Positions 1 to 10,829 of a stretch of DNA of 39,224 nt are shown here, piece after piece (position 1 is the first letter of the stretch; the number at the start of each line of letters is the position of its first letter). Location: the IMG/VR virus record IMGVR_UViG_3300048055_000070, positions 1 to 39,224 of that record, one strand, 5' to 3'. The notes beneath the pieces are model-generated. The model made no database searches and was not told the DNA's origin. It saw only the letters and a list, made by a program, of their open reading frames with translations. Made by a program: the position numbers and the translations under genes. Source of the stretch: a virus.

Positions 1-76
1 GAACAGTTGTTCAAGGATCCGACACTATCTAAGCTGGAGCTTTTCTCCAGACGGGACCTACCTGGATGGGACCACT

Positions 77-295
77 ATGGCAACGAACCCGCATGTGATT
101 GACCCTGCCGACTTAGAGTTCTTGCGTTTCGCCAGGAAGCAGCTACACTGGGATGCTAAGAAGCACGCCAAGAGGGGTTACAGTTCCGACATCTGGGAGA
201 CCAACGCTAGGGCCTGTTACCCTGCGTACGTGGCTGTAATGGGCGACAAGGAGATTACAGCTTTGATGCATATGGTATTTGGAGATTTTGTATGA
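77..295 (+). CDS. Small hypothetical phage protein, 72 aa
   Basis: A 72-residue protein I do not recognise. It is mildly charged and rich in aromatic residues, with no signal peptide, membrane segment or cysteine motif. The ATG is preceded by a purine-rich GGATGGGA stretch that could act as a weak ribosome binding site. Its TGA overlaps the ATG of the next small gene by an ATGA junction, which suggests translational coupling and supports both being real. It sits upstream of a tRNA cluster, a usual place for small accessory phage genes. Function is unknown. Confidence 0.6.
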   Translation: MATNPHVIDPADLEFLRFARKQLHWDAKKHAKRGYSSDIWETNARACYPAYVAVMGDKEITALMHMVFGDFV

Positions 296-441
296 CTGGC
301 CTAGCGGGGTGTACAAGACCCCCTCCCACAACGTGGGTAGGTAAATGGTGGTTACGGTTTAAACTCGACCACTTTGACGACGATAACTGTTTTGTTTGTA
401 AGAACTGCGGTGCAACAACTTGGTTGTTTGGGGCAGACTAG
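292..441 (+). CDS. Very small protein with a CxxC zinc-type knuckle, 49 aa
   Basis: A 49-residue open frame that starts inside the stop codon of the preceding gene (ATGA overlap) and ends just before the tRNA-Ser gene. The visible feature is C-F-V-C-K-N-C-G near residues 36-41, half of a zinc ribbon, followed by an aromatic tail. The N-terminal half is rich in proline and tryptophan. No second cysteine pair is present, so zinc binding would need dimerisation or may not occur. Coupling to the upstream gene and tight packing against the tRNA argue that it is expressed. Function is unknown. Confidence 0.45.
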   Translation: MTGLAGCTRPPPTTWVGKWWLRFKLDHFDDDNCFVCKNCGATTWLFGAD

Positions 442-457
442 CAGACGTAGCGAATAT

Positions 458-546
458 GGAGAGTGACTGGACAGACGAAGAACTGAGCTTGAACCTCAGC
501 GCACGTTAAAAGCGTGTCAAGGGTGCGAACCCCTTACTCTCCTCCA
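458..546 (+). tRNA. tRNA-Ser(UGA)
   Basis: The acceptor stem GGAGAGT pairs with ACTCTCC over 7 bp and the CCA end is encoded. The anticodon stem is CTGAG/CTCAG with loop CTTGAAC, giving anticodon TGA at 490-492. A long variable arm with a 5-bp stem (GCACG with CGTGT, one G-U wobble) marks it as a class II serine tRNA. The T-stem is AAGGG/CCCTT with loop TGCGAAC. The discriminator base is T rather than the usual G of serine tRNAs, and the D-arm is weak. It would read UCA codons. Confidence 0.85.
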
Positions 547-558
547 AGTAGGACCAAC

Positions 559-978
559 ATGCACAACAAAATCAAAGTGGTAGTCGCAGCCATTAGGGAC
601 CATTCTGGCAGGGTTTTCTTACAACAACGCACGAATGATAACCCGGTGTTCCCAGGACACTGGGAGTGCCCTGGCGGGAAAGTTGATAAAGGGGAAACTG
701 AGATACAAGCATTGAAAAGGGAACTTGAAGAAGAACTGGGTCTTACCAGTATTACAGTAGAGTACCAGCCGTTCCTAACTATGGGGTTTACACACCTACA
801 ACCACCCTGCGTTATTCTTTGCTACTTTGTCCACATAAACAGAAACGAACCAATGAAGTTAAACGCAGCACAGGAATCAGGCTGGTTTGACCTAGATAAA
901 GTCAAAACATTAAACAAAAGAGCACCAAGTACTGATATAATAGTGGAGTATCTTAGAAACATCAATTTGGAAAGCTAA
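559..978 (+). CDS. Nudix hydrolase (MutT-like)
   Basis: A 139-residue Nudix protein. The Nudix box is complete: G40, E46, R54-E55, E58-E59 and G61 fit GX5EX7REUXEEXGU. The family hydrolyses nucleoside diphosphates linked to another group with a divalent metal held by the box glutamates. The pattern VVAAIRDHSGRVFLQQR before the box and the length resemble MutT-type nucleotide sanitising enzymes, so a role in cleaning damaged or unusual (d)NTPs is plausible but inferred. I chose the ATG at 559 over an earlier in-frame start at 514 because that start lies inside the tRNA-Ser gene and AAGTAGGA lies just upstream of 559. The gene sits between two tRNA genes as an accessory cargo gene. Confidence 0.9.
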   Translation: MHNKIKVVVAAIRDHSGRVFLQQRTNDNPVFPGHWECPGGKVDKGETEIQALKRELEEELGLTSITVEYQPFLTMGFTHLQPPCVILCYFVHINRNEPMKLNAAQESGWFDLDKVKTLNKRAPSTDIIVEYLRNINLES

Positions 979-1063
979 CCAGAAAAGCTCTGGCGTACTT
1001 TGCTAAAGTAATGGTTCGTGCTAAGACCACGGATGGGAGGCAGTATCTCAGTTTTCCGCAAAT

Positions 1064-1138
1064 GGCCCCATCGTCTAATGGGAGGATAAACCGCTTTCAA
1101 CGGTTCAACGGAGGGTTCGATTCCCCCTGGGGTCACCA
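1064..1138 (+). tRNA. tRNA-Glu(UUC)
   Basis: The acceptor stem GGCCCCA pairs with TGGGGTC (one G-U), followed by A and an encoded CCA. The anticodon stem is AACCG/CGGTT with loop CTTTCAA, giving anticodon TTC. The T-loop is the canonical TTCGATT. The T-stem GAGGG/CCCCC carries one A-C mismatch. The following protein gene starts four bases after the CCA end. Confidence 0.9.
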
Positions 1139-1141
1139 AAA

Positions 1142-1381
1142 ATGTCATTCGATAAAAACTATCCAAAGCGCAAGGACTGGCGAAAGCCTTACAGAGGAAG
1201 TAAGCGTTTCGACGCTTCCTGTAGACCGGGAGGTGATTGTCCGCACTGTATCGGGTCTCGGCAGCATCAAGCGAAAAAAGAGGATGAAAGAACCCGAAGT
1301 AGGTTGTATGTGCACCCACAGGCAGCAGTACTGTTTGGTTGTCCCCACGAACTGTGGTATGATTGGTACGACGATTTGTAG
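1142..1381 (+). CDS. Small basic cysteine-containing protein, 79 aa
   Basis: A 79-residue protein with a very basic N-terminus (repeated Lys/Arg/Tyr in residues 6-22) followed by cysteines in the pattern C-x5-C-x2-C (CRPGGDCPHC, about residues 27-36), suggesting a small metal or nucleic-acid binding fold. I do not recognise the family. It begins immediately downstream of tRNA-Glu and ends eight bases before the split tRNA-Gly gene. No strong Shine-Dalgarno is visible because the tRNA occupies the upstream bases. A longer overlapping frame starting at 1011 would read through the tRNA and was not preferred. Confidence 0.55.
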   Translation: MSFDKNYPKRKDWRKPYRGSKRFDASCRPGGDCPHCIGSRQHQAKKEDERTRSRLYVHPQAAVLFGCPHELWYDWYDDL

Positions 1382-1388
1382 GTAGCAC

Positions 1389-1439
1389 GCAGGTATGGTA
1401 TAAAGATTGTGCCCTAGCCTTCCAAGTTAGAGATTTGTT
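1389..1439 (+). tRNA. tRNA-Gly(UCC), 5' part of a split gene
   Basis: These 51 bases fold as the first two thirds of a glycine tRNA: acceptor 5' strand GCAGGTA, D-arm GTAT/GTGC with a 7-base loop, anticodon stem CTAGC/GTTAG with loop CTTCCAA (anticodon TCC), variable loop AGAT and T-stem 5' strand TTGTT. It aligns base for base with the layout of E. coli tRNA-Gly(UCC) as I know it. The T-loop, T-stem 3' strand and acceptor 3' strand do not follow. They are found about 680 bases further on at 2123-2145, beyond a homing endonuclease gene. Confidence 0.75.
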
Positions 1440-2100
1440 CGTTAATTATATTAACTATAATGTCTAGGTACTTTTGTGATGTTTTTGGTTTCACGTACTT
1501 ATGTTGACTGCAATCAATGAGGCATAAAGAAATACCAGCTTCAATACAAGCTGCAAACTTTCTACGATCATTGTTCTTTATAGAAGCAAGTTTTTCTTCA
1601 CCAAAAATGGGTTCGTAATGAAAAATGCCATTTAGTTCAAAGGCTATCTTTAGTGAAGGGATGTAAATATCTAGTTCACTATTAATTGCTTCCCTACTGT
1701 TGTAATAAACAACCAAATTAGGGTATATTGTGGTTAGTTGTTCTTCTACCCATTCTTCTAATTTAGATCTCCTGTTTCCCTTAGTTTTGTTGGCTTGTCC
1801 GTGGGTAGCTGCACAAGAATGATTGCAGAAATTGTTTTTTGATATTTGACTAGGCGCTCTTACAACAGTAGAACCACATTGTGCGCAGTTTACCTCACGC
1901 TTTTTTCTTTTGGATAATCCGAGGCACCGTATGCTACAATAGTCACATTTATTTCGTTTAGCGTGTATTTTTCTTGACAGAATTTCTTTCTTACTTTTTA
2001 AGAAGGTACTACTGCAAAATTCACATGACAACTCAAACAAAGCCTTCGTATTACTTGCGTTGAACAAGCCCTCATCGTATAATCTCTTCATAAGAGCCAT
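1414..2100 (-). CDS. Homing endonuclease, zinc fingers plus Vsr-like (EDxHD) nuclease domain
   Basis: A 228-residue minus-strand protein. Residues 22-100 carry cysteine pairs C26/C29, C52/C55/C59, C72/C75 and C92/C96, a row of zinc knuckles suited to DNA recognition. Residues 105-200 resemble the Vsr-like EDxHD homing endonucleases: ELDIYIP at 142-148, a hydrophobic strand with E155-L-N-G, H161, and the lysine/arginine-rich helix around 175-181. Such enzymes cut an allele lacking the gene and spread by repair. Low GC content and opposite orientation mark it as a recent arrival. The TAG stop begins exactly at the first base of the tRNA-Gly anticodon stem, and the last eight codons are antisense to that stem, its loop and the T-stem. 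No Shine-Dalgarno is visible before the ATG at 2100. Confidence 0.85.
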   Translation of the reverse strand: MALMKRLYDEGLFNASNTKALFELSCEFCSSTFLKSKKEILSRKIHAKRNKCDYCSIRCLGLSKRKKREVNCAQCGSTVVRAPSQISKNNFCNHSCAATHGQANKTKGNRRSKLEEWVEEQLTTIYPNLVVYYNSREAINSELDIYIPSLKIAFELNGIFHYEPIFGEEKLASIKNNDRRKFAACIEAGISLCLIDCSQHKYVKPKTSQKYLDIIVNIINEQISNLEG

Positions 2101-2122
2101 CGTATCAAATTAAAACCCATTA
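1440..2122. mobile_element. Homing endonuclease insertion inside the tRNA-Gly gene
   Basis: About 683 bases separate the two parts of the tRNA-Gly gene, with the junction at or next to the border of T-stem and T-loop. The insert is clearly more AT-rich than its surroundings and is almost filled by a minus-strand endonuclease gene whose last codons lie in the 5' tRNA part. Only about 22 bases of insert lie outside the gene, so there is no room for a group I intron core. I read this as a mobile homing endonuclease gene that landed in a tRNA gene. The junction could be off by a few bases because TTC occurs on both sides. Confidence 0.7.
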
Positions 2123-2145
2123 TTCAATAAGCAAGACCTGCTCCA
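2123..2145 (+). tRNA. tRNA-Gly(UCC), 3' part of a split gene
   Basis: These 23 bases complete the glycine tRNA: T-loop TTCAATA, T-stem 3' strand AGCAA, acceptor 3' strand GACCTGC, discriminator T and encoded CCA. AGCAA pairs with TTGTT of the 5' part (one G-U), and six of seven acceptor positions pair with GCAGGTA, with A7-G66 mismatched. The T discriminator matches bacterial glycine tRNAs. The next tRNA starts only two bases later. Whether a functional tRNA is ever made from the two parts is unknown. Simple inactivation by insertion is the plainest reading. Confidence 0.7.
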
Positions 2146-2147
2146 AC

Positions 2148-2221
2148 GCCCTTTTCGTATAAAAGTATTACTTCACCTTTGTAACGTGAAAAAGTCGGGG
2201 CAGTACCGACAAAGGGCTCCA
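2148..2221 (+). tRNA. tRNA-Thr(UGU), degenerate
   Basis: The acceptor stem GCCCTTT pairs perfectly with AAAGGGC and is followed by T and an encoded CCA. The anticodon arm TCACC/CGTGA encloses loop TTTGTAA, giving anticodon TGT, but the pair closing the loop is C-C. The variable loop is AAAA and the T-stem GTCGG/CCGAC is perfect. The T-loop reads GGCAGTA and lacks the invariant TTC, so standard T-loop/D-loop contacts could not form as usual. The D-arm (GTAT...TTAC) resembles that of the split tRNA-Gly. It lies two bases after tRNA-Gly. Confidence 0.65.
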
Positions 2222-2227
2222 GTTTTT

Positions 2228-2301
2228 CCGCGCATCCATCGGTTTATGGCGATCCGGCTTTGACCCGGATTTTAGTGGTTCGATTCCACTTGCGTGGTCC
2301 A
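2228..2301 (+). tRNA. tRNA-Gln(UUG)
   Basis: The acceptor stem CCGCGCA pairs with TGCGTGG (one G-U), followed by T and an encoded CCA. The anticodon stem TCCGG/CCGGA with loop CTTTGAC gives anticodon TTG. The variable loop is TTTT, the T-stem AGTGG/CCACT is perfect and the T-loop is the canonical TTCGATT. The D-arm pairs as ATCG/CGAT around a GG-containing loop. The first base pair is C-G instead of the weak U-A pair typical of bacterial glutamine tRNAs. Confidence 0.8.
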
Positions 2302-2316
2302 GATTCCGTACTACAC

Positions 2317-2387
2317 TCTCGTAACCACTGGGTGGGAACAACGCTCTGAACGTTGTTTAGCTGGATCGTAACCAGCTACGAGATCCA
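2317..2387 (+). tRNA. tRNA-Gln(CUG)
   Basis: The acceptor stem TCTCGTA pairs perfectly with TACGAGA, followed by T and an encoded CCA. The anticodon stem CAACG/CGTTG with loop CTCTGAA gives anticodon CTG. The T-stem GCTGG/CCAGC is perfect with loop ATCGTAA. The first pair is T-A, as in bacterial glutamine tRNAs. The D-arm is unusually short: only 15 bases lie between acceptor and anticodon stems. It is the last member of the tRNA cluster and lies 17 bases upstream of the methyltransferase start. Confidence 0.7.
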
Positions 2388-2404
2388 ATTTAGAGGGAGA
2401 GCAA

Positions 2405-3442
2405 GTGACCACCCCGACCACCCCCACCGCAGAAGTCACCGACCTATTCGTTGGCGATTGCCTGGACATCCTCAAGGGCTACCCCGACAATCACTTTGAC
2501 AGCGTTGTCACCGATCCGCCATACGGCCTGTCGATCATGCGATCTCGGTGGGATTACGACGTTCCTAGTGAGGACACATGGCGCGAGTGTCTCCGGGTGC
2601 TCAAGCCAGGTGGTCACCTGCTGGCCTTCGCTGGGACACGCACGCAGCACCGGATGGGGGTGAGAATCGAGGACGCGGGGTTTGAGATCCGTGACATTCT
2701 GATGTGGGCGCACTCGCAGGGATTCCCAAAAAGTTTGGACGTGGGCAAGGCGATCAAAAAGGTGGCGGGTGCGGAGCGGGCTAAACAGTGGGACGGCTGG
2801 GGGACAGCATTAAAGCCTGCGCTTGAACCAATCACGATGGCGCGCAAGGTGTTGACCAAGGGCACCACCGTCGCCGCGAACGTACTGGAGTGGGGGACGG
2901 GCGGGATCAACATTGACGCCTGCCGGGTACCAGCTAGTGAAGCGCTAGTGCGTCCGTCTATAGATCGACAGGACAACGCGGTGCTAGGCAAGGGGCTGGG
3001 TGCAGGCGTTCAAGTCGAGCCATCCGGAAGATGGCCGAGTAATTTTACCCACGATGGCAGTGATGAGGTGCTGGGGCTGTTCCCGGAGTCGAAGAGTACA
3101 AAAGGAAATGGGAAAAGTAAGATCAACACGTTTGTTGCTGGTGGTCCGGTATGGAACGACAGCAACACTTACGCCGACTCTGGTTCTGCCGCCAGGTTCT
3201 TTTACTGTGCGAAAGCGAGCAAATCAGAACGGGGCGAAGGCAACACTCACAGCACCGTGAAGCCTATCGCCCTCATGCGCTACTTATGCCGCCTCGTCAC
3301 GCCACCTGGCGGGCTCGTACTGGATCCGTTCATGGGCTCAGGCACAACAGGGTGCGCAGCCGTTGCCGAGGGCTTTAGATTCGTTGGGATTGACCTGTCA
3401 GCCGAATACGTCGAGATCGCACGCAAACGCATACAAGCATAG
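2405..3442 (+). CDS. DNA methyltransferase, beta class (N4-cytosine or N6-adenine)
   Basis: A 345-residue DNA amino-methyltransferase of the N6/N4 family. The catalytic motif DPPY is at residues 37-40 and the S-adenosylmethionine motif DPFMGSGTTG lies near the C-terminus at 307-316, followed by GIDLSAEYVEIA. Motif IV before motif I is the beta-class order, and the stretch between them (about 120-280) would hold the target recognition region. Such phage enzymes usually work alone and protect phage DNA from host restriction. The target sequence cannot be read from the protein. The start is GTG, with GAGGGAGAG seven or so bases upstream. No partner restriction enzyme is seen nearby. Confidence 0.92.
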   Translation: MTTPTTPTAEVTDLFVGDCLDILKGYPDNHFDSVVTDPPYGLSIMRSRWDYDVPSEDTWRECLRVLKPGGHLLAFAGTRTQHRMGVRIEDAGFEIRDILMWAHSQGFPKSLDVGKAIKKVAGAERAKQWDGWGTALKPALEPITMARKVLTKGTTVAANVLEWGTGGINIDACRVPASEALVRPSIDRQDNAVLGKGLGAGVQVEPSGRWPSNFTHDGSDEVLGLFPESKSTKGNGKSKINTFVAGGPVWNDSNTYADSGSAARFFYCAKASKSERGEGNTHSTVKPIALMRYLCRLVTPPGGLVLDPFMGSGTTGCAAVAEGFRFVGIDLSAEYVEIARKRIQA

Positions 3443-3467
3443 ACCAGGGGTTTTTGTGAGGATTGAA

Positions 3468-4556
3468 ATGACTACAACACTATACAAACTAACAAGCACA
3501 GGTAAAACACAAGAGTGGAAACAAGAACTAGAGGGTGACAAGTACCGGACCATTTCGGGGCAAAAGGACGGGAAGAAGGTAACCTCTGCGTGGACTGTTT
3601 GTTTACCCAAGAACGTGGGTAAGTCCAACGAAGTTACTGCTGAGGAGCAGGCTGTCAAGGAGGTTGAGGCCAACTACACCCTAAAGCGTAAGGGAGGCTA
3701 CAAGGACTCAGAAGGCGCGATTGCAGACAAGCCGTTCCAGCCTATGCTTGCCAAGAACTATGGCAACTACGAGAACGTGTTCCCCCTGTACAGCCAGCCG
3801 AAATTGGACGGGATCAGGTGTATTGCTAAGGCAGACGGCCTGTGGTCAAGAAAGAACACACCAATCACTGCGGTGCCTCACATTTGGGAAGCACTAAAGC
3901 CCCTGTTCCAAAAGGACCCCACGTTGATCTTAGACGGCGAGTTGTACAACCACGTCTTGAATGCCGACTTCAACTCAATCGTTTCGATGGTGAGGAAGCA
4001 TGCACCTACAGAGAGTGAGCTAATGGTAGCGAAGGCACTAGTCCAGTACCACGTCTACGACCTGCCTAGCTCATCAGGTAGCTTCAGCCAACGGAACAAA
4101 GAACTACTCAGTTTACTAAGTGCCTCACCAAGCTGTATTGTCCTTGTCCACACAGACAAGGCCAGCAATCAAGCAGACCTGGACGCACAGTATGACCATT
4201 ACCTTAGTAATAGTTACGAGGGCCAAATGGTTCGTGTAGACGCCAAGTATGAACTGAAGCGCTCCAAGACGCTCCTGAAGCGCAAGGAGTCCCAGGACAA
4301 CGAGTACACCGTCCTAGACATCGTAGAAGGGACTGGTAATCGTGCTGGCATGGTCGGCCATGTTGTGGTAGACCTTGGGGGCGGTAAGACGTGTAACCCC
4401 AATCCAAAGGGGACACGGGAGTTCCTTCGTGAGGTATTGGCCAACAAAGCGAAGTACATCGGAAAGCAGGCCACGGTGGAGTTCTTTGGTTTCACCCCCG
4501 ACAAGAACCTCCGATTCCCTAGGGTTAAGGCGTTTCACTTGAACGGTAGGATTTAA
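3468..4556 (+). CDS. ATP-dependent DNA ligase with WGR-like N-terminal region
   Basis: A 362-residue DNA ligase. The adenylation lysine K112 lies in KLDGIR (112-117). Further nucleotidyltransferase motifs follow: LDGELYN with E158, EGQMVR at 251-256 and KTLLKRK at 267-273. The C-terminal 80 residues (VLDIVEGTG...GFTPDK) fit the OB-fold domain. Residues 1-80, with KTQEWKQELEGDKYRTISGQ and NVGKSNEVTAEEQAVKE, resemble the WGR-type domain seen at the N-terminus of some phage ligases. The enzyme seals nicks in phage DNA during replication and repair. I chose the ATG at 3468 (TGAGGATTGAA upstream) because the longer frame from 3363 runs back into the methyltransferase gene. Confidence 0.93.
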   Translation: MTTTLYKLTSTGKTQEWKQELEGDKYRTISGQKDGKKVTSAWTVCLPKNVGKSNEVTAEEQAVKEVEANYTLKRKGGYKDSEGAIADKPFQPMLAKNYGNYENVFPLYSQPKLDGIRCIAKADGLWSRKNTPITAVPHIWEALKPLFQKDPTLILDGELYNHVLNADFNSIVSMVRKHAPTESELMVAKALVQYHVYDLPSSSGSFSQRNKELLSLLSASPSCIVLVHTDKASNQADLDAQYDHYLSNSYEGQMVRVDAKYELKRSKTLLKRKESQDNEYTVLDIVEGTGNRAGMVGHVVVDLGGGKTCNPNPKGTREFLREVLANKAKYIGKQATVEFFGFTPDKNLRFPRVKAFHLNGRI

Positions 4557-4557
4557 C

Positions 4558-4866
4558 ATGACTGACCCAAGATTGACACCGGAGCGAATCGACTACCTAC
4601 GCCGCTGGATGCCCCTAGCTTACCCAGAAGCCGAAACCATCCTTGCCCTGATCGAGGAGCGGGAGGCGATGCGCGCGGCTGTGGCAACACACCTGCAAGT
4701 GTCGATGCAAAACCTGATTGACCGTCCGGAGATCGCCAAACTCACCGCTGAGAACGAGAAGCTGAGGGCAGTGGCGGTAGCTGCGGAGAAGCTGTTGCGC
4801 GTCAACGCTAGATACGATCGCGTGGGGCTGTCCAACGCGCTCGACGCATGGAAGGCGGGCACATGA
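4558..4866 (+). CDS. Paralogue 1 of a tandem DPRLTPE family, 102 aa
   Basis: A 102-residue protein starting MTDPRLTPERI, with an ALIEERE helix around residue 30 and a predicted coiled coil (KLTAENEKLRAVAVAAEKLL, 61-80). The next two genes begin with almost the same residues and carry the same LIEER helix, so the three arose by duplication. The family is unknown to me in function. Composition is richer in GC than in the ligase gene before it. It starts two bases after the ligase stop and ends in an ATGA overlap with the next paralogue, so the three are co-translated. Confidence 0.75.
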   Translation: MTDPRLTPERIDYLRRWMPLAYPEAETILALIEEREAMRAAVATHLQVSMQNLIDRPEIAKLTAENEKLRAVAVAAEKLLRVNARYDRVGLSNALDAWKAGT

Positions 4867-5147
4867 CCGACCCAAGACTGACACCGGAAACGTTGGCAGC
4901 GGTGGCCTCGGAAGCGCGGGCCACGCTGGCCGACGAGCCGCATGGCAACGCGCTTCTGTCTTGCCTGCTCGCGCTTATCGAGGAGCGGGATGCGTTACTC
5001 GCGCCCAAACAGAAGCCGCGCATGGTGACCGTGCATCCGCAAATGTGGGAGCAGACACAGGAGCGCCTTGCCGAGTTGCGCGCAGAGAACGAGCTGCTGC
5101 GCGCGGAACTTGCGGAAATGCCGCCCCCGGAATGGCACGATGATTAG
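4863..5147 (+). CDS. Paralogue 2 of a tandem DPRLTPE family, 94 aa
   Basis: A 94-residue protein beginning MTDPRLTPETL, followed by an ALIEERDALL helix (about 37-46) and a C-terminal coiled coil of repeated Glu/Leu/Arg (ERLAELRAENELLRAELAEM). I chose ATG 4863, which overlaps the previous stop as ATGA, over ATG 4848. The 3' part shows high GC and runs of gcgc. The middle segment PKQKPRMVTVHPQMWEQT has no counterpart in the paralogues. Function is unknown. The repeated N-terminus suggests a shared binding partner or fold rather than an enzyme. Confidence 0.72.
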   Translation: MTDPRLTPETLAAVASEARATLADEPHGNALLSCLLALIEERDALLAPKQKPRMVTVHPQMWEQTQERLAELRAENELLRAELAEMPPPEWHDD

Positions 5148-5163
5148 TAGAAAGGAGCGCGAA

Positions 5164-5763
5164 ATGGCTGACCCCAGACTGACACCGGAGCGGATTGCTG
5201 ACGTGCGCCGCGTCGCGGACGCCGTCGTACTGTCTGTGCCGCGCCACATAGTGCCGCTAGACGACGCCCGGGCTGTACGCGAAACCATCATCGCCCTGAT
5301 CGAGGAGAACGCACTGCTTGCTCTCGATCTCAGCTACGAGCGTGCAAAGACCCGCGCGTGCGACGCGACGGGTGTCGAGTGGCGGCGGGCCTTCATCCGA
5401 ACTCTCGCGATAGAGAGTGACGTAGGCACACCGGAGGAGATGGAGTACCACATGGAACGCCTGATCGAGAAGCTACACACGGCACAGCCCGACCCCATGG
5501 GCGACTGCCATCACGGGTGCCACGCGAGCAGTTGCAAACAGTGCGCCGCCGTGCGACACATAGAGGCGCTAGAGGATCGGCTTGTCGTGATGGCCAGGGA
5601 ACACGAAGACGAGATCGCGGCGCTGACTGCGGAGCGTGACGCGCTGCCGACGCCTGAACTGAGCGACGAGTTTGTCGCGAGTCGCGGCGATCATTCGATG
5701 GCGCGAGCGTTAGCCGACGACCTGCTTGCTGACGGGTGGGCGATCGTGCGGGTGAAGCCATGA
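5164..5763 (+). CDS. Paralogue 3 of a tandem DPRLTPE family, 199 aa
   Basis: A 199-residue protein starting MADPRLTPERI with the ALIEENALL helix, so it belongs to the same family as the two genes before it but is about twice as long. Residues 100-150 include a helix pair and a cysteine/histidine cluster (GDCHHGCHASSCKQCAAV, about 116-133) that looks like a metal site absent from the paralogues. A second coiled segment (IEALEDRLVVMAREHEDEI) follows. AAAGGAG at 5151-5157 is a strong ribosome site for the ATG at 5164. The C-terminus GWAIVRVKP resembles the end of the next small protein. Confidence 0.75.
   Translation: MADPRLTPERIADVRRVADAVVLSVPRHIVPLDDARAVRETIIALIEENALLALDLSYERAKTRACDATGVEWRRAFIRTLAIESDVGTPEEMEYHMERLIEKLHTAQPDPMGDCHHGCHASSCKQCAAVRHIEALEDRLVVMAREHEDEIAALTAERDALPTPELSDEFVASRGDHSMARALADDLLADGWAIVRVKP
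5748..5763 (+). repeat. 16-bp direct repeat at a gene junction, copy 1
   Basis: The 16 bases GCGGGTGAAGCCATGA contain the ribosome-site region, the ATG of the next gene and the overlapping TGA of the previous one. An identical copy stands at the next gene junction (5912-5927). Confidence 0.8.
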
Positions 5764-5927
5764 CGTTGGAGAGCTTTCACGATCTGCTGTGCGGGTGCCT
5801 GCATGCCAAATCGCGTCACGAGTGGCGTAGAAATGACCTGGGGCGGCTCTTGTTTTGCGAAGCGGTGGTCCCACTTGGCCCAGCGACAAACTGCATTCGT
5901 GGCCCTGGATGGCGGGTGAAGCCATGA
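5760..5927 (+). CDS. Small hypothetical protein, 55 aa
   Basis: A 55-residue protein starting in an ATGA overlap with the gene before and ending in the same kind of overlap with the gene after. It has two cysteines in LLCGCLHAKSRHEW and ends GPGWRVKP, which echoes the end of paralogue 3. The nucleotide sequence around its start and its stop is an identical 16-base repeat, so the gene may have arisen by duplication of a junction. I do not recognise a family. An earlier in-frame ATG at 5736 was not used because the coupling start fits better. Confidence 0.55.
   Translation: MTLESFHDLLCGCLHAKSRHEWRRNDLGRLLFCEAVVPLGPATNCIRGPGWRVKP
5912..5927 (+). repeat. 16-bp direct repeat at a gene junction, copy 2
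   Basis: Identical to positions 5748-5763, again with the start codon of the downstream gene overlapping the stop codon of the upstream gene. Confidence 0.8.
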
Positions 5928-6235
5928 GCCGATCGCTAAACAAGAGCCGGTGTGGCCGCGACTGTGGCGTGTGCTCGGCTGCCCTTAGTGACCTCCCCAA
6001 GATTCGGGCGCGTGTTGCTGCTGACGACCTAACGGCGACGCTTGCAGTCTATATTGCCCCGAACCACGACGGCTACTACGACGAGTGCGATTGCATCCGC
6101 TGCGACCCAGAGGCACACGAAGACGCCATGTGGTTGGCCATCGGCCGCGACATCGAACCCGCCGATTGCGAAGCGGACGATACCCGCGCCGAACCCCTCC
6201 GCGTCCCGCTGGCCGAGATCGCAAGACCAACGTAA
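5924..6235 (+). CDS. Cysteine-rich hypothetical protein, 103 aa
   Basis: A 103-residue acidic protein with cysteines in two groups: CGRDCGVC near the N-terminus (about 10-17) and CDCIRC in the middle (about 54-59), the spacing of a zinc-binding fold. The C-terminal third is acidic. I do not recognise the family. The start at 5924 overlaps the previous stop (ATGA) and lies in the second copy of the 16-base repeat. The stop TAA shares its last base with the ATG of the next gene. Confidence 0.62.
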   Translation: MSRSLNKSRCGRDCGVCSAALSDLPKIRARVAADDLTATLAVYIAPNHDGYYDECDCIRCDPEAHEDAMWLAIGRDIEPADCEADDTRAEPLRVPLAEIARPT

Positions 6236-7476: not shown

Positions 7477-8115
7477 ATGGGATTACAAAACACAAGACGT
7501 AGAGCGCCACAAGTCTCACCTAGAGACATCAAGAAGCACAGTGACATCGTACGAGAGGTTGGAGCTAAGCTAATCATTGAAGGGACCAAGATCCCCACGG
7601 AAACAGGGTACATAATCCCTGGCCATGCAGGCGTTAGGCTAGAGACATACTTTGAACGGTTCCTTCCAGGCGCCTCCGGGCCACTTGTATGCCACGATAA
7701 GAAGGACAGAGTGGTACGAGTCCTCGCAGGGGCTGGTTTCCTTGTCTGCAACGACGATACCAAGCGCCTACAGCAGGGTGACGAGGTCATTCTACCAGCA
7801 AACTCTACGTATCGTTTCTCTGCTACGAGTAATACCGAGTTGGACTTGCACATCGCACAGGAAAGCAAGTACACGTTTGCTCTTAGAGTAGTAGAAGAAG
7901 CCGGATCCAAGGTGGAACCAACGTCCGAGCAGCTACTTTCTGACTCAAACTCGTCCGGCGATGTTATCCTACATACACGTACAGGCAGCAAGGCTAAGCA
8001 GCAGCTTAGTCGTCAACGGGATCAGGCACGTCCTGGTGAGAAGGCCTCCGCTCCATTGCCCTCAATGCACCACGTTGCTAATGTCCGCGCAGTAACGCCA
8101 ACAGAACATGATTAA
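7477..8115 (+). CDS. Cupin-like beta-barrel protein, 212 aa
   Basis: A 212-residue protein with a central cupin-like stretch (about residues 58-135): ERFLPGASGPLV, a strand VRVLAGAGFLVCNDD, then LQQGDEVILPANSTYRFSA, matching the G-x-G and P-x-G-x-x-H type layout of cupins but without the metal-binding histidines, so it is likely structural rather than enzymatic. The last 60 residues are polar and low complexity (KQQLSRQRDQARPGEK). The ATG at 7477 follows AGAGGGG closely; an earlier GTG at 7471 overlaps that site. The stop shares a base with the start of the 904-residue gene. A virion role is plausible from position. Confidence 0.6.
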   Translation: MGLQNTRRRAPQVSPRDIKKHSDIVREVGAKLIIEGTKIPTETGYIIPGHAGVRLETYFERFLPGASGPLVCHDKKDRVVRVLAGAGFLVCNDDTKRLQQGDEVILPANSTYRFSATSNTELDLHIAQESKYTFALRVVEEAGSKVEPTSEQLLSDSNSSGDVILHTRTGSKAKQQLSRQRDQARPGEKASAPLPSMHHVANVRAVTPTEHD

Positions 8116-10829
8116 TGCGTCTATACCTCGACCTACATAAGGCGTCTCCCGCCCCTCCCAAGCAGCCCGCCCCTCCAGGCGGTGCTGCTGCCCCTGCTGC
8201 TGCCCCTCCGGGCGGCGCAGGAGGTGGTGGTGGAGGTGGCGTAGAGTACGACCGCTACGCAGCAGCCGGGACACCGGAGGCTATAGCGGCCCAGGGTAAG
8301 CCTGGGTGGGGGGCTTCCCCGTCAGGGGGTATGCGCCACGAGAAGGGTGTAACCGGCCCTAAGGCGTCTTCCCTGGATGAGTACAACGCAGACGCTCCTG
8401 CCAAAGCTGATCCGTTTTCGTCTAACGCAGAGGATTTTGCTGCCACTACCCCGGCAGATCACTACCAGCACATCAACACCCATGAGGAGACACCGGGCAC
8501 AGATCCTGAACTCACAGAGATGCACCGTCTGCACCTGAAGGAAAAGACTGCACACTTCACAGCAAATGACCACGGGGAATTGGCATCCGAGTTAGAAGAT
8601 AACGGGCTATTCTACGCCGCCACAGAACATAGGGCGATTTCGGATACTGCCAAAGCCAAGGAGGCAATGGGAGGTTCCCAATCAGCAGAAGAAGGTGCAG
8701 AAGAAGGCGCAGAAGAAGGCGCAGAACCAGCACAGAGCGCCCAGCACAAAGCACATACAGAAGCGCACGAAGAAGCTCACCAGGGGTTCAACGCAGCCAC
8801 GCGAGAAGAGGACCAAGCGTACGAGGCACACAACGCAGCCAAAGAAAACGTAAGTGCCGCTGAAAAAGGCATTGCTGACGCGGAACGGGATGCTGTACAG
8901 GATGAAGAGAATGATTACGTAAGCCGCACTACTTCAGCTGCCACGGCTAATAAGAGCGCCAAGAAAGCAGGAAAAGCAGCTGAAGACAAGAGAGACGCGG
9001 CCCATGGTAAGCTGAAGAAGCTAACGAAAGAGCACGACACAAGCGAAGGTAACATCGCTAAGATGTCCCAACGCAAGCTGGCTATTGATAAGGAACTGTC
9101 CGAGTTACAAGAATCCGCACCGCAGTCCAGTGGTTTCGTAGACAACGATCAGAAAAAGGCACAAAGAGCCGAGACTTCACAGAAGTCTGAAAAGGCCGCG
9201 AGTAAAGCAAGAGACAAAAAGGATTTTACCAAGGCGAACTTAGTTGCCCGTGAGAGTGAACATGACACCAGTGCGGGTGAGCTAGATAAGATGTCCAAAC
9301 GTAAGCTTGAGGTGGACCGTGAGCTATCCGAGTTGGAATCAAACGCCCCACCATCCGGTGGAGTTGCAGAGACTGCCCAGCAGACATCCGAAAGAGCTAC
9401 GAAGGTCAGCCAATCCGAAGCGGCTGTGAAGACTGCATCCACCCAAAAGAAGGCGGCTAAGAAGCGGCTAGACACTAGCACGAGTAAACACAACGCAAGC
9501 GAAGCTGCACTGGCTAAGATGGCCCGTAAAAGGCTATCTGTGGACCGTAAGATATCTGAGTTGGAGGGGTCTGCTCCACAGCACGGGGATTTCGCTGACA
9601 GCGACAAGCACGCAGACGCCAGTGCCCGTCACGATAAAAAGACGGAAAAGCTTAAGAAGGATCGTAATGATCTAAAGCACGATCAAGCGGCTGCCAAACT
9701 GAAGCACAAAGAGCTTACGGCTGCCCACGGGAAAGTCACGAAGGTACACGCAGCAGCGGCGAAGGTACACGCAGCAGCGGAGAAGGCACACGCCAAGGTT
9801 ACTGCTGAGAACAAGGCGGCTGAGGCTAGCGGACAACTCGCAGCTGGAGGCGCTGGCCATGCTGCCAAGGTTGAAAAGCTTCAGAAGGAACAGGAGACAC
9901 TAAAGCACGACTACGCGGCTGCCGAACCAAAGCACAAAGAGCTTAAGGCTGCCCATGGGGAGGCCAAGAAGGAACATGCAGCAGCAGAGAAGGCGCACGC
10001 AACAGCAGAGAAGGCACACGCCAAGGTTACTGCTGAGAACAAGGCGGCGGATGCTGCGGGTCGTCTAAACGCGGGGAGTAACAGCCATGCTTCTAAGGTT
10101 GCGAAGCTTAAGAAGGAACAGGATACGCTTAAGCACGACCACGCGGCTGCCCAACTGAAGCACAAAGAGCTTAAGGCTGCCCATGGGGAGGCCAAGAAGG
10201 AACATGCAGTAGCGGAGAAGGCGCACGTAAACGCAGCCAAAGCAGCCAAGGATGCTGACACGGCTCACACCAATGTTAGGGCAGAGCACGCAGAGGCAAG
10301 CAAGGCAACGTCCCGCCCCAATCACCCCAAGGTTAAGGCCGCTCAGGAGGCACACAAGGAAGCAACCCAGGCCCACAAGAAAACAGAAGCCGCAGCAGCC
10401 AAGTCCACCAAGAAGGTGGAATCCACCCATGAGAAGCGTTCTAAGTCTGAAAAGCGGGTGGAAGCGACCGAGGCTAAGGACAAGGCCAAGGCCGAAGCAG
10501 CTGCTGCCAAGTTGAAGGCGCTTAAGGATAAGAATGATAAGAAGCCAAAACCGGGTGAATCTAGTAGCTCTAGTAGCTCTAGCAAACGGTCGCAGATGGC
10601 ACAAGGGTGGAACGCCGGTAAGGCCGTAGGCTCCCGCCTGGCCCACGCCGCTACCGCGGATTCCGCTGGTGAAACGGCCTCAACTGTGGTATCGTACAGT
10701 ACGCAAGGTGTCGCTGGAGCGGGGCATTTCCTCCTTAGACCACGGGGCGGTGACGAGAAGAAGAAGGAAACTGCACCTTCCAAAGAGAGCAAAGATGACA
10801 AAGCTGTTTCTAAACCTAAACCTACGTAA
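8115..10829 (+). CDS. Giant repetitive coiled-coil protein with shared 44-aa module, 904 aa
   Basis: A 904-residue protein of unknown function. Residues 10-42 are Pro/Ala/Gly rich. Residues 42-85 form a module (GVEYD...GKPGW...SGG...KGVTGPKAS) also present in the kinase-like protein at 14846. Residues 190-205 are Glu/Gly/Ala repeats. Residues 302-496 hold three copies of a unit with EHDTS, KMSxRKL and SELE, about 78 residues apart. Residues 512-715 hold three copies of a unit with LKHD, KHKEL and EKAHAKVTAENKAA, about 76 apart. All are Ala/Lys/Glu/His rich and should form long coiled coil. The C-terminus has a serine run and a charged tail. Position beside the portal suggests a head-internal or ejected protein, which is inference. 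It starts in a TAATG overlap. Confidence 0.8.
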   Translation: MRLYLDLHKASPAPPKQPAPPGGAAAPAAAPPGGAGGGGGGGVEYDRYAAAGTPEAIAAQGKPGWGASPSGGMRHEKGVTGPKASSLDEYNADAPAKADPFSSNAEDFAATTPADHYQHINTHEETPGTDPELTEMHRLHLKEKTAHFTANDHGELASELEDNGLFYAATEHRAISDTAKAKEAMGGSQSAEEGAEEGAEEGAEPAQSAQHKAHTEAHEEAHQGFNAATREEDQAYEAHNAAKENVSAAEKGIADAERDAVQDEENDYVSRTTSAATANKSAKKAGKAAEDKRDAAHGKLKKLTKEHDTSEGNIAKMSQRKLAIDKELSELQESAPQSSGFVDNDQKKAQRAETSQKSEKAASKARDKKDFTKANLVARESEHDTSAGELDKMSKRKLEVDRELSELESNAPPSGGVAETAQQTSERATKVSQSEAAVKTASTQKKAAKKRLDTSTSKHNASEAALAKMARKRLSVDRKISELEGSAPQHGDFADSDKHADASARHDKKTEKLKKDRNDLKHDQAAAKLKHKELTAAHGKVTKVHAAAAKVHAAAEKAHAKVTAENKAAEASGQLAAGGAGHAAKVEKLQKEQETLKHDYAAAEPKHKELKAAHGEAKKEHAAAEKAHATAEKAHAKVTAENKAADAAGRLNAGSNSHASKVAKLKKEQDTLKHDHAAAQLKHKELKAAHGEAKKEHAVAEKAHVNAAKAAKDADTAHTNVRAEHAEASKATSRPNHPKVKAAQEAHKEATQAHKKTEAAAAKSTKKVESTHEKRSKSEKRVEATEAKDKAKAEAAAAKLKALKDKNDKKPKPGESSSSSSSSKRSQMAQGWNAGKAVGSRLAHAATADSAGETASTVVSYSTQGVAGAGHFLLRPRGGDEKKKETAPSKESKDDKAVSKPKPT
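8238..8369 (+). repeat. 44-aa GVEYD...KGVTGPKAS module, copy 1
   Basis: Codes for residues 42-85 of the 904-residue protein. It is 34/44 identical without gaps to residues 289-332 of the kinase-like protein (15710-15841). The bases coding KGVTGPK are nearly unchanged between copies, so the copies are related by duplication or exchange and not by chance. Confidence 0.85.
9018..10259 (+). repeat. Six tandem coiled-coil repeats of about 76-78 codons in two families
   Basis: Three units of family A (9018-9602) are followed by three of family B (9648-10259) inside the 904-residue gene. The family B units share long identical DNA stretches, for example around AAGCACAAAGAGCTTAAGGC, which points to recent expansion. 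Both families have nearly the same period, which suggests a common origin or a constraint on repeat length. Confidence 0.8.

Follow-up and report, generated by a model that had tools for sequence, protein, structure and literature searches.

A phage tRNA-Gly(UCC) gene split in its T-arm by an antisense EDxHD-type homing endonuclease gene of a family found at tRNA genes

What becomes of a tRNA gene that has a homing endonuclease gene lying inside it, and how did the one come to sit in the other? The question is raised by the window analyzed here, a 39 kb stretch of DNA (52% GC) that makes up a virus record whose capsid, portal, and tail genes are SPO1-like. Near its start the original prediction, made from the sequence letters, had placed a tRNA-Gly(UCC) gene split in its T-arm, with T-stem strands that pair across the gap and six of seven acceptor pairs, and had supposed that a tRNA still made from these pieces would need a new way of joining. 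The features of the locus are collected in Table 1.

The two stretches are the halves of one tRNA-Gly(UCC), parted between tRNA nucleotides 53 and 54 (window positions 1439 and 2123) by an insert of 683 nt. When the halves are joined, 20 of the 21 cloverleaf pairs form, with 5/5 in the T-stem and 6/7 in the acceptor stem; the UCC anticodon stands in a seven-nucleotide loop (CTTCCAA), the T-loop reads TTCAATA, and the main defects are the acceptor mismatch A7.G66 and the change of G19 to A. There are 132 T-loop motifs on both strands of the window, and only the one at 2123 pairs with the 5′ half at 9 or more of 12 positions, reaching 11. All candidate halves were also ranked by a tRNA-Gly pair-and-letter score of our own, a stand-in for that of Infernal with nine other tRNAs as its training set: of 78,404 candidate 3′ halves the one at 2123 came top (64.1; next 52.4), and of about 78,000 candidate 5′ halves the one at 1389 did (64.1; next 5.3), while the contiguous stretch 1389-1462 scored 15.0. 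Positions 1-53 of the Rfam tRNA model align exactly on the 5′ half and are cut at its 3′ end, in a weak match (13.8 bits, E 0.79), and the joined halves align without a gap to phage tRNA-Gly genes, with identities of 41/51 and 15/23 to that of Xanthomonas phage X1. ARAGORN made no call on the joined sequence, and exact searches of viral contigs for either half returned no match, so that the window contig is the single known copy of the locus. A whole tRNA at 1389-1459, proposed by a covariance model (29.2 bits), was rejected for the acceptor and T-stem mismatches in its 3′ part; its score stems from the 5′ half, and the true 3′ half lies at 2123. The pair T53-A61 in place of G53-C61 was weighed as a sign of decay, and the same pair is present in the intact tRNAs of loci L120 and L007.

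Table 1. Features of the split tRNA-Gly(UCC) locus and its neighbors, in window coordinates
Feature	Coordinates	Strand	Remarks
tRNA-Glu(UUC), intact, upstream neighbor of the split tRNA-Gly	1064..1138	+	
tRNA-Gly(UCC) 5′ part, nucleotides 1-53, acceptor 5′ strand to T-stem 5′ strand	1389..1439	+	Rfam model end, gapless alignment, best-scoring 5′ half
EDxHD/Vsr-like (by model) homing endonuclease gene, 228 aa	1414..2100	-	Start possibly 2091
Last endonuclease codons (QISNLEG) and stop, antisense to the tRNA segment that opens with the first anticodon-stem base and extends to the T-stem	1414..1439	-	
Inserted element of 683 nt (GC 35%; contig GC 52%)	1440..2122		Junction at tRNA nucleotides 53/54, as in relatives
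tRNA-Gly 3′ part: T-loop, T-stem 3′ strand, acceptor 3′ strand, TCCA	2123..2145	+	T-loop pairing scan, half-ranking score
tRNA-Thr(UGU), downstream neighbor	2148..2221	+	Rfam 34.2 bits; order as in L207

The split gene belongs to a cluster at the window start in which tRNA-Ser(UGA), at about 458-546, is followed by tRNA-Glu(UUC), the split tRNA-Gly(UCC), tRNA-Thr(UGU), and two tRNA-Gln genes at 2228 and 2317. A related phage (L207, portal 57% identical) shares the tRNA order Ser-Glu-Gly-Thr-Gln, and at the same place it has an intact tRNA-Gly(UCC) gene at 4444-4514 (64.3 bits), the very finding that had been set beforehand as a test. The predicted split of the gene in its T-arm is thus confirmed by the coordinates, the 11/12 pairing, the ranking of the halves, and the gapless phage alignments, and the pairing across the gap is as described, the one missing acceptor pair being A7.G66. 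Within the cluster, the tRNA-Ser(UGA), which has a long variable arm, was seen by eye and missed by ARAGORN and Rfam, and its place matches L207; the tRNA-Thr(UGU) was missed by ARAGORN and has a C-C mismatch at the base of the anticodon loop. Elsewhere in the window, a 904-aa ORF adjoining the portal gene (8115-10829) has no Pfam or PHROGs match.

Apart from 22 non-coding nucleotides, the insert is taken up by the endonuclease ORF, and its codon usage is foreign (GC3 of 32% against 57%). The ORF is intact, with a Cys-rich zinc-finger region at the N-terminus and a nuclease domain at the C-terminus, at about residues 109-223. Pfam returned no match for the window protein, and an FCS-type zinc finger in 9 of 22 family members; the PHROGs matches are to homing/HNH endonucleases, and the nearest known phage proteins are Staphylococcus SPbeta-like fragments only. 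In a comparison of the predicted structure (pLDDT 87), the top rows over residues 109-224 are E. coli Vsr (1cw0, Z 10.7) and I-Bth0305I (3r3p, Z 10.3, 22% identity), and four candidate catalytic residues, E115, D144, H161, and D178, matched by position to the letters of the EDxHD motif, are invariant in 22 family sequences. By its modeled fold, then, the window endonuclease is of the EDxHD (Vsr-like) type. Although it resembles I-Bth0305I in the fold of the catalytic domain and in the candidate E-D-H-D residues, the window family differs in being free-standing and antisense in tRNA genes, in its zinc-finger-like N-terminus, and in taking C-terminal codons from the tRNA. The stop codon occupies 1414-1416, with the anticodon stem beginning at 1414, and the relatives likewise have tails antisense to tRNA (SGIRTHAPV, PGVEPGS, AGLEPATN), with their tRNAs restored. 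The AT-rich insert with its minus-strand gene, the enzyme type, and the antisense final codons therefore all stand as they were first described.

Scans of viral contigs and genomes brought together a family of 102 distinct loci, the window and 101 further members that for the most part adjoin tRNA genes, and all family counts rest on loci picked by their endonuclease. At the standard ARAGORN threshold, a complete tRNA was called in 59 of the 102 with its 3′ end at the C-terminal end of the endonuclease (calls at 75% included false tRNAs and were disregarded), and these tRNAs are diverse: Met, Leu, Ser, Pro, Gly, His, Trp, Ile, Lys, and others. On the far side of the endonuclease, many loci hold a tRNA remnant that starts at T54. 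An element of 661-793 nt is flanked in 14 loci by identical or nearly identical direct repeats of 17-22 nt; these begin at T54 (T-loop TTC) in 13 of the 14, most end at N73, and the tRNA stays complete, with the duplicate 3′ end left beyond the endonuclease. Loci with T54-N73 repeats of about 20 nt, in many tRNA types, include L129, L005, L289, L306, L170, L159, L027, L165, L330, L024, L315, and L352. Among 37 loci whose tRNA is clearly complete, the remnant agrees with the resident tRNA at 13 or more of 19 positions in 13, whereas mismatched loci reach this level in 5.8%. The duplication was probably made at insertion, since the copies agree with their resident tRNA across many different tRNAs and the endonuclease tree does not track tRNA type. 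A systematic search for further splits, in which halves were paired to remnants, gave 13 of 80 loci against 63 of 960 cross pairs; these proved to be remnants paired to complete tRNAs, or chance AT-rich matches, the window excepted, and the window copy is the only clear split found.

The family also has its outliers. Some loci lie away from tRNA genes (for example, L001, L015, and L132), and in L016 the endonuclease is on the same strand as the nearby tRNAs and abuts a tRNA 5′ end. In L013 the restored serine tRNA at the C-terminal end of the endonuclease has a seemingly odd T-loop, GGCGGTA instead of TTCGA, which might be an escape from cutting. The endonucleases of L188, L190, and L191 lie within cyanobacterial tRNA arrays and share a similar structured-looking stretch (TATTAGGT.TTAAACCTAAAT...) between a tRNA-Leu and the endonuclease, for which L191 gave no Rfam match.

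In 25 of the 102 loci a second structure separates the endonuclease from the completed tRNA. It is an HDV/theta-like element of about 70-77 nt, placed directly after the tRNA 3′ end, with P1, P2, P3, and P4 in the HDV order, a J4/2 of the CUAAR type in most copies, and the catalytic C present in the relatives. Over 16 aligned sequences, 93.2% of cells are paired and 20 of 23 pairs have changes on both sides; the covariation is 0.715 against 0.272 when shuffled, and sliding the partners destroys the signal. From its double-pseudoknot pairing, covariation, and catalytic C, the element is probably a theta (HDV-like) ribozyme, predicted to be self-cleaving. A loose HDV descriptor was dropped, as it gave 89/400 hits in shuffled sequence, and an alignment-based model, R1, was used instead; an Rfam search of L003 up to E 1 did not detect the ribozyme. 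R1 found seven more matches at the same place in loci outside its building set. Over 498 kb of other phage sequence (41 loci) it found none, a weak control in that the 14 of these loci that were checked hold no tRNA genes. Since both R1 and the loci were chosen through the endonuclease, the link of ribozyme to endonuclease is measured from the endonuclease side only. In 28 whole records picked for the endonuclease, most strong R1 matches adjoin a family endonuclease; four do not (two in the record of L111, one in that of L006, and one in that of L155), which means that the ribozyme is found by itself as well, and at L111 itself a weak, degenerate copy adjoins the endonuclease. Loci in which a ribozyme lies between a complete tRNA and an antisense EDxHD-type gene include L003, L004, L005, L024, L112, L115, L116, L119, L129, L137, L143, L149, L161, L165, L170, L181, L289, L296, L306, L315, L319, L345, and L352. 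Theta-like ribozymes with no adjoining family endonuclease are seen in L266 (tRNA-Leu), L268, L267, and at 3883-3955 of L111; a few hundred bases downstream of the one in L266 is a stretch like a tRNA 3′ end, perhaps a scar.

The window locus agrees with its family in insertion site, antisense orientation, enzyme, and tRNA-derived C-terminal codons. Set against these relatives, it lacks a second copy of T54-N73, and a search of the window with R1 up to E 1 gave no match. Its endonuclease body ends where the bodies of the relatives meet the restored tRNA end, and the window thus looks like a plain insertion. The explanation we favor, and consider probable, is that the tRNA-Gly(UCC) gene was entered antisense, between nucleotides 53 and 54, by an EDxHD-type homing endonuclease gene whose family targets tRNA genes, the insertion itself being shown by comparison. 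The enzyme probably cleaves tRNA genes at their conserved T-loop, and its gene would be copied in as the break is repaired. Related elements with a clear scar have left a second copy of T54-N73, by which the invaded tRNA gene stays complete, and the theta-like ribozyme found in a quarter of the family would release the 3′ end of the tRNA. The window copy, with neither, may never have had them or may have lost them; its tRNA-Gly(UCC) is most likely inactive, and the glycine codons would be read by host tRNAs. Since the window has no second T54-N73 copy and no ribozyme, an inactivated tRNA is the simplest reading. Against it stands the good keeping of the halves (20/21 pairs), which a dead gene does not need; a recent insertion accounts for it equally well.

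How the window copy came to be unrepaired can be told in a second way, in which a repair copy of T54-N73, perhaps with a ribozyme, was once present and was later deleted, the tRNA being dead either way. The tree neighbors nearest to the window enzyme, L112 and L116, both have a ribozyme and a repaired tRNA, and the element of L116 sits in a tRNA-Gly(UCC), so that the repair copy may equally have been lost or never have been present. The support for this grouping is moderate, however (93/85, below the strict mark), and a random deletion would seldom leave a junction that, like this one, falls precisely at nucleotide 53 and where endonuclease bodies usually end; we regard a later deletion as possible but rather doubtful.

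Under either history the gene is inactive, and a third account would have it work in pieces, with RNAs of 51 and 23 nt pairing through the acceptor and T stems around a nick at 53/54, or being ligated. The halves do cofold to near a cloverleaf at -19.5 kcal/mol (2.7% of shuffled 3′ halves do as well), 20 of the 21 pairs are kept, and split genes made by endonucleases are known in phages (PMC2988022). The 3′ piece, however, would require its own transcript start or cleavage at T54, the ends of the insert (40-nt flanks) pair no better than shuffles, 24% of which are as good, the window shows no complementary leader and trailer of the archaeal split-tRNA type, the only ligase that Pfam finds in the window is a DNA ligase, and the relatives repair the gene instead. 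A tRNA working in pieces is very unlikely, and the new joining mechanism that had been supposed finds nothing in its support, there being no intron signal and no pairing of the insert ends, and other solutions in the relatives. An assembly artefact of the metagenomic contig might be suspected, as this is a single contig with no second copy found, yet the position of the junction, the orientation, and the element type agree with many independent loci, and the collapse of a 20-nt repeat would delete the endonuclease, not one copy of the repeat, which makes an artefact highly improbable. Group I introns of tRNA genes usually lie in the anticodon loop and end in G. That the insert is a self-splicing intron or the like, removed from the tRNA transcript, is hardly credible, for although group I introns often carry homing endonucleases (PMC3943268), the EDxHD type being among the families known from them, Rfam intron families gave no match on either strand up to E 1 over 1-6000 or up to E 5 over 1380-2230, no group I intron core was recognized in the insert, the ORF covers all but 22 nt of it, and it ends in A outside the anticodon loop.

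Returning to the unrepaired insertion that we favor, parts of it have counterparts among known systems. The mobE gene of Aeromonas phage Aeh1 is a free-standing homing endonuclease gene that splits nrdA (PMC2988022). As in the window, a phage gene is divided in two by such a gene; there it is a protein gene, and the enzyme is of the HNH type. The two halves of Aeh1 nrdA reportedly keep their function, as two proteins. Phages and islands that integrate into tRNA genes, and the Allomyces atp6 element, are insertions that restore the invaded gene with a duplicate 3′ end; the window family differs in having no integrase, and the window copy did not restore its gene. T4 SegB and other endonucleases occur in phage tRNA clusters (PMC2988022), and SegB is likewise a homing endonuclease in a phage tRNA region, but of the GIY-YIG type and between tRNA genes, whereas the window endonuclease is inside one. 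Theta ribozymes were described by Kienbeck et al. 2024 (PMC10879173), whose main text mentions neither endonucleases nor homing. As there, an HDV-like ribozyme lies right after the tRNA 3′ end in the 25 family loci, though not in the window, and in the family it is tied to an antisense homing endonuclease and to the T54-N73 duplication; we found no report of a link between theta ribozymes and endonucleases in the open-access papers searched.

We tentatively put forward, as quite possible, that the window is an unrepaired member of a specialized family, so far little described, that invades tRNA genes of any kind at the T-loop, that insertion normally duplicates T54-N73, and that the theta ribozyme is often cargo that frees the restored 3′ end. 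If so, theta ribozymes beside phage tRNAs would arise in part as by-products of such elements, not as recoding switches, a testable alternative for their place there. Judged from sequence, every state is to be found in nature within the family: the split tRNA, the repaired one, and the repaired one accompanied by a ribozyme that probably cleaves itself. The family counsels caution as well, as tRNA fragments and antisense ORFs in phage tRNA clusters may be insertion scars, and it shows that even one of biology's most constrained genes can house a selfish one.
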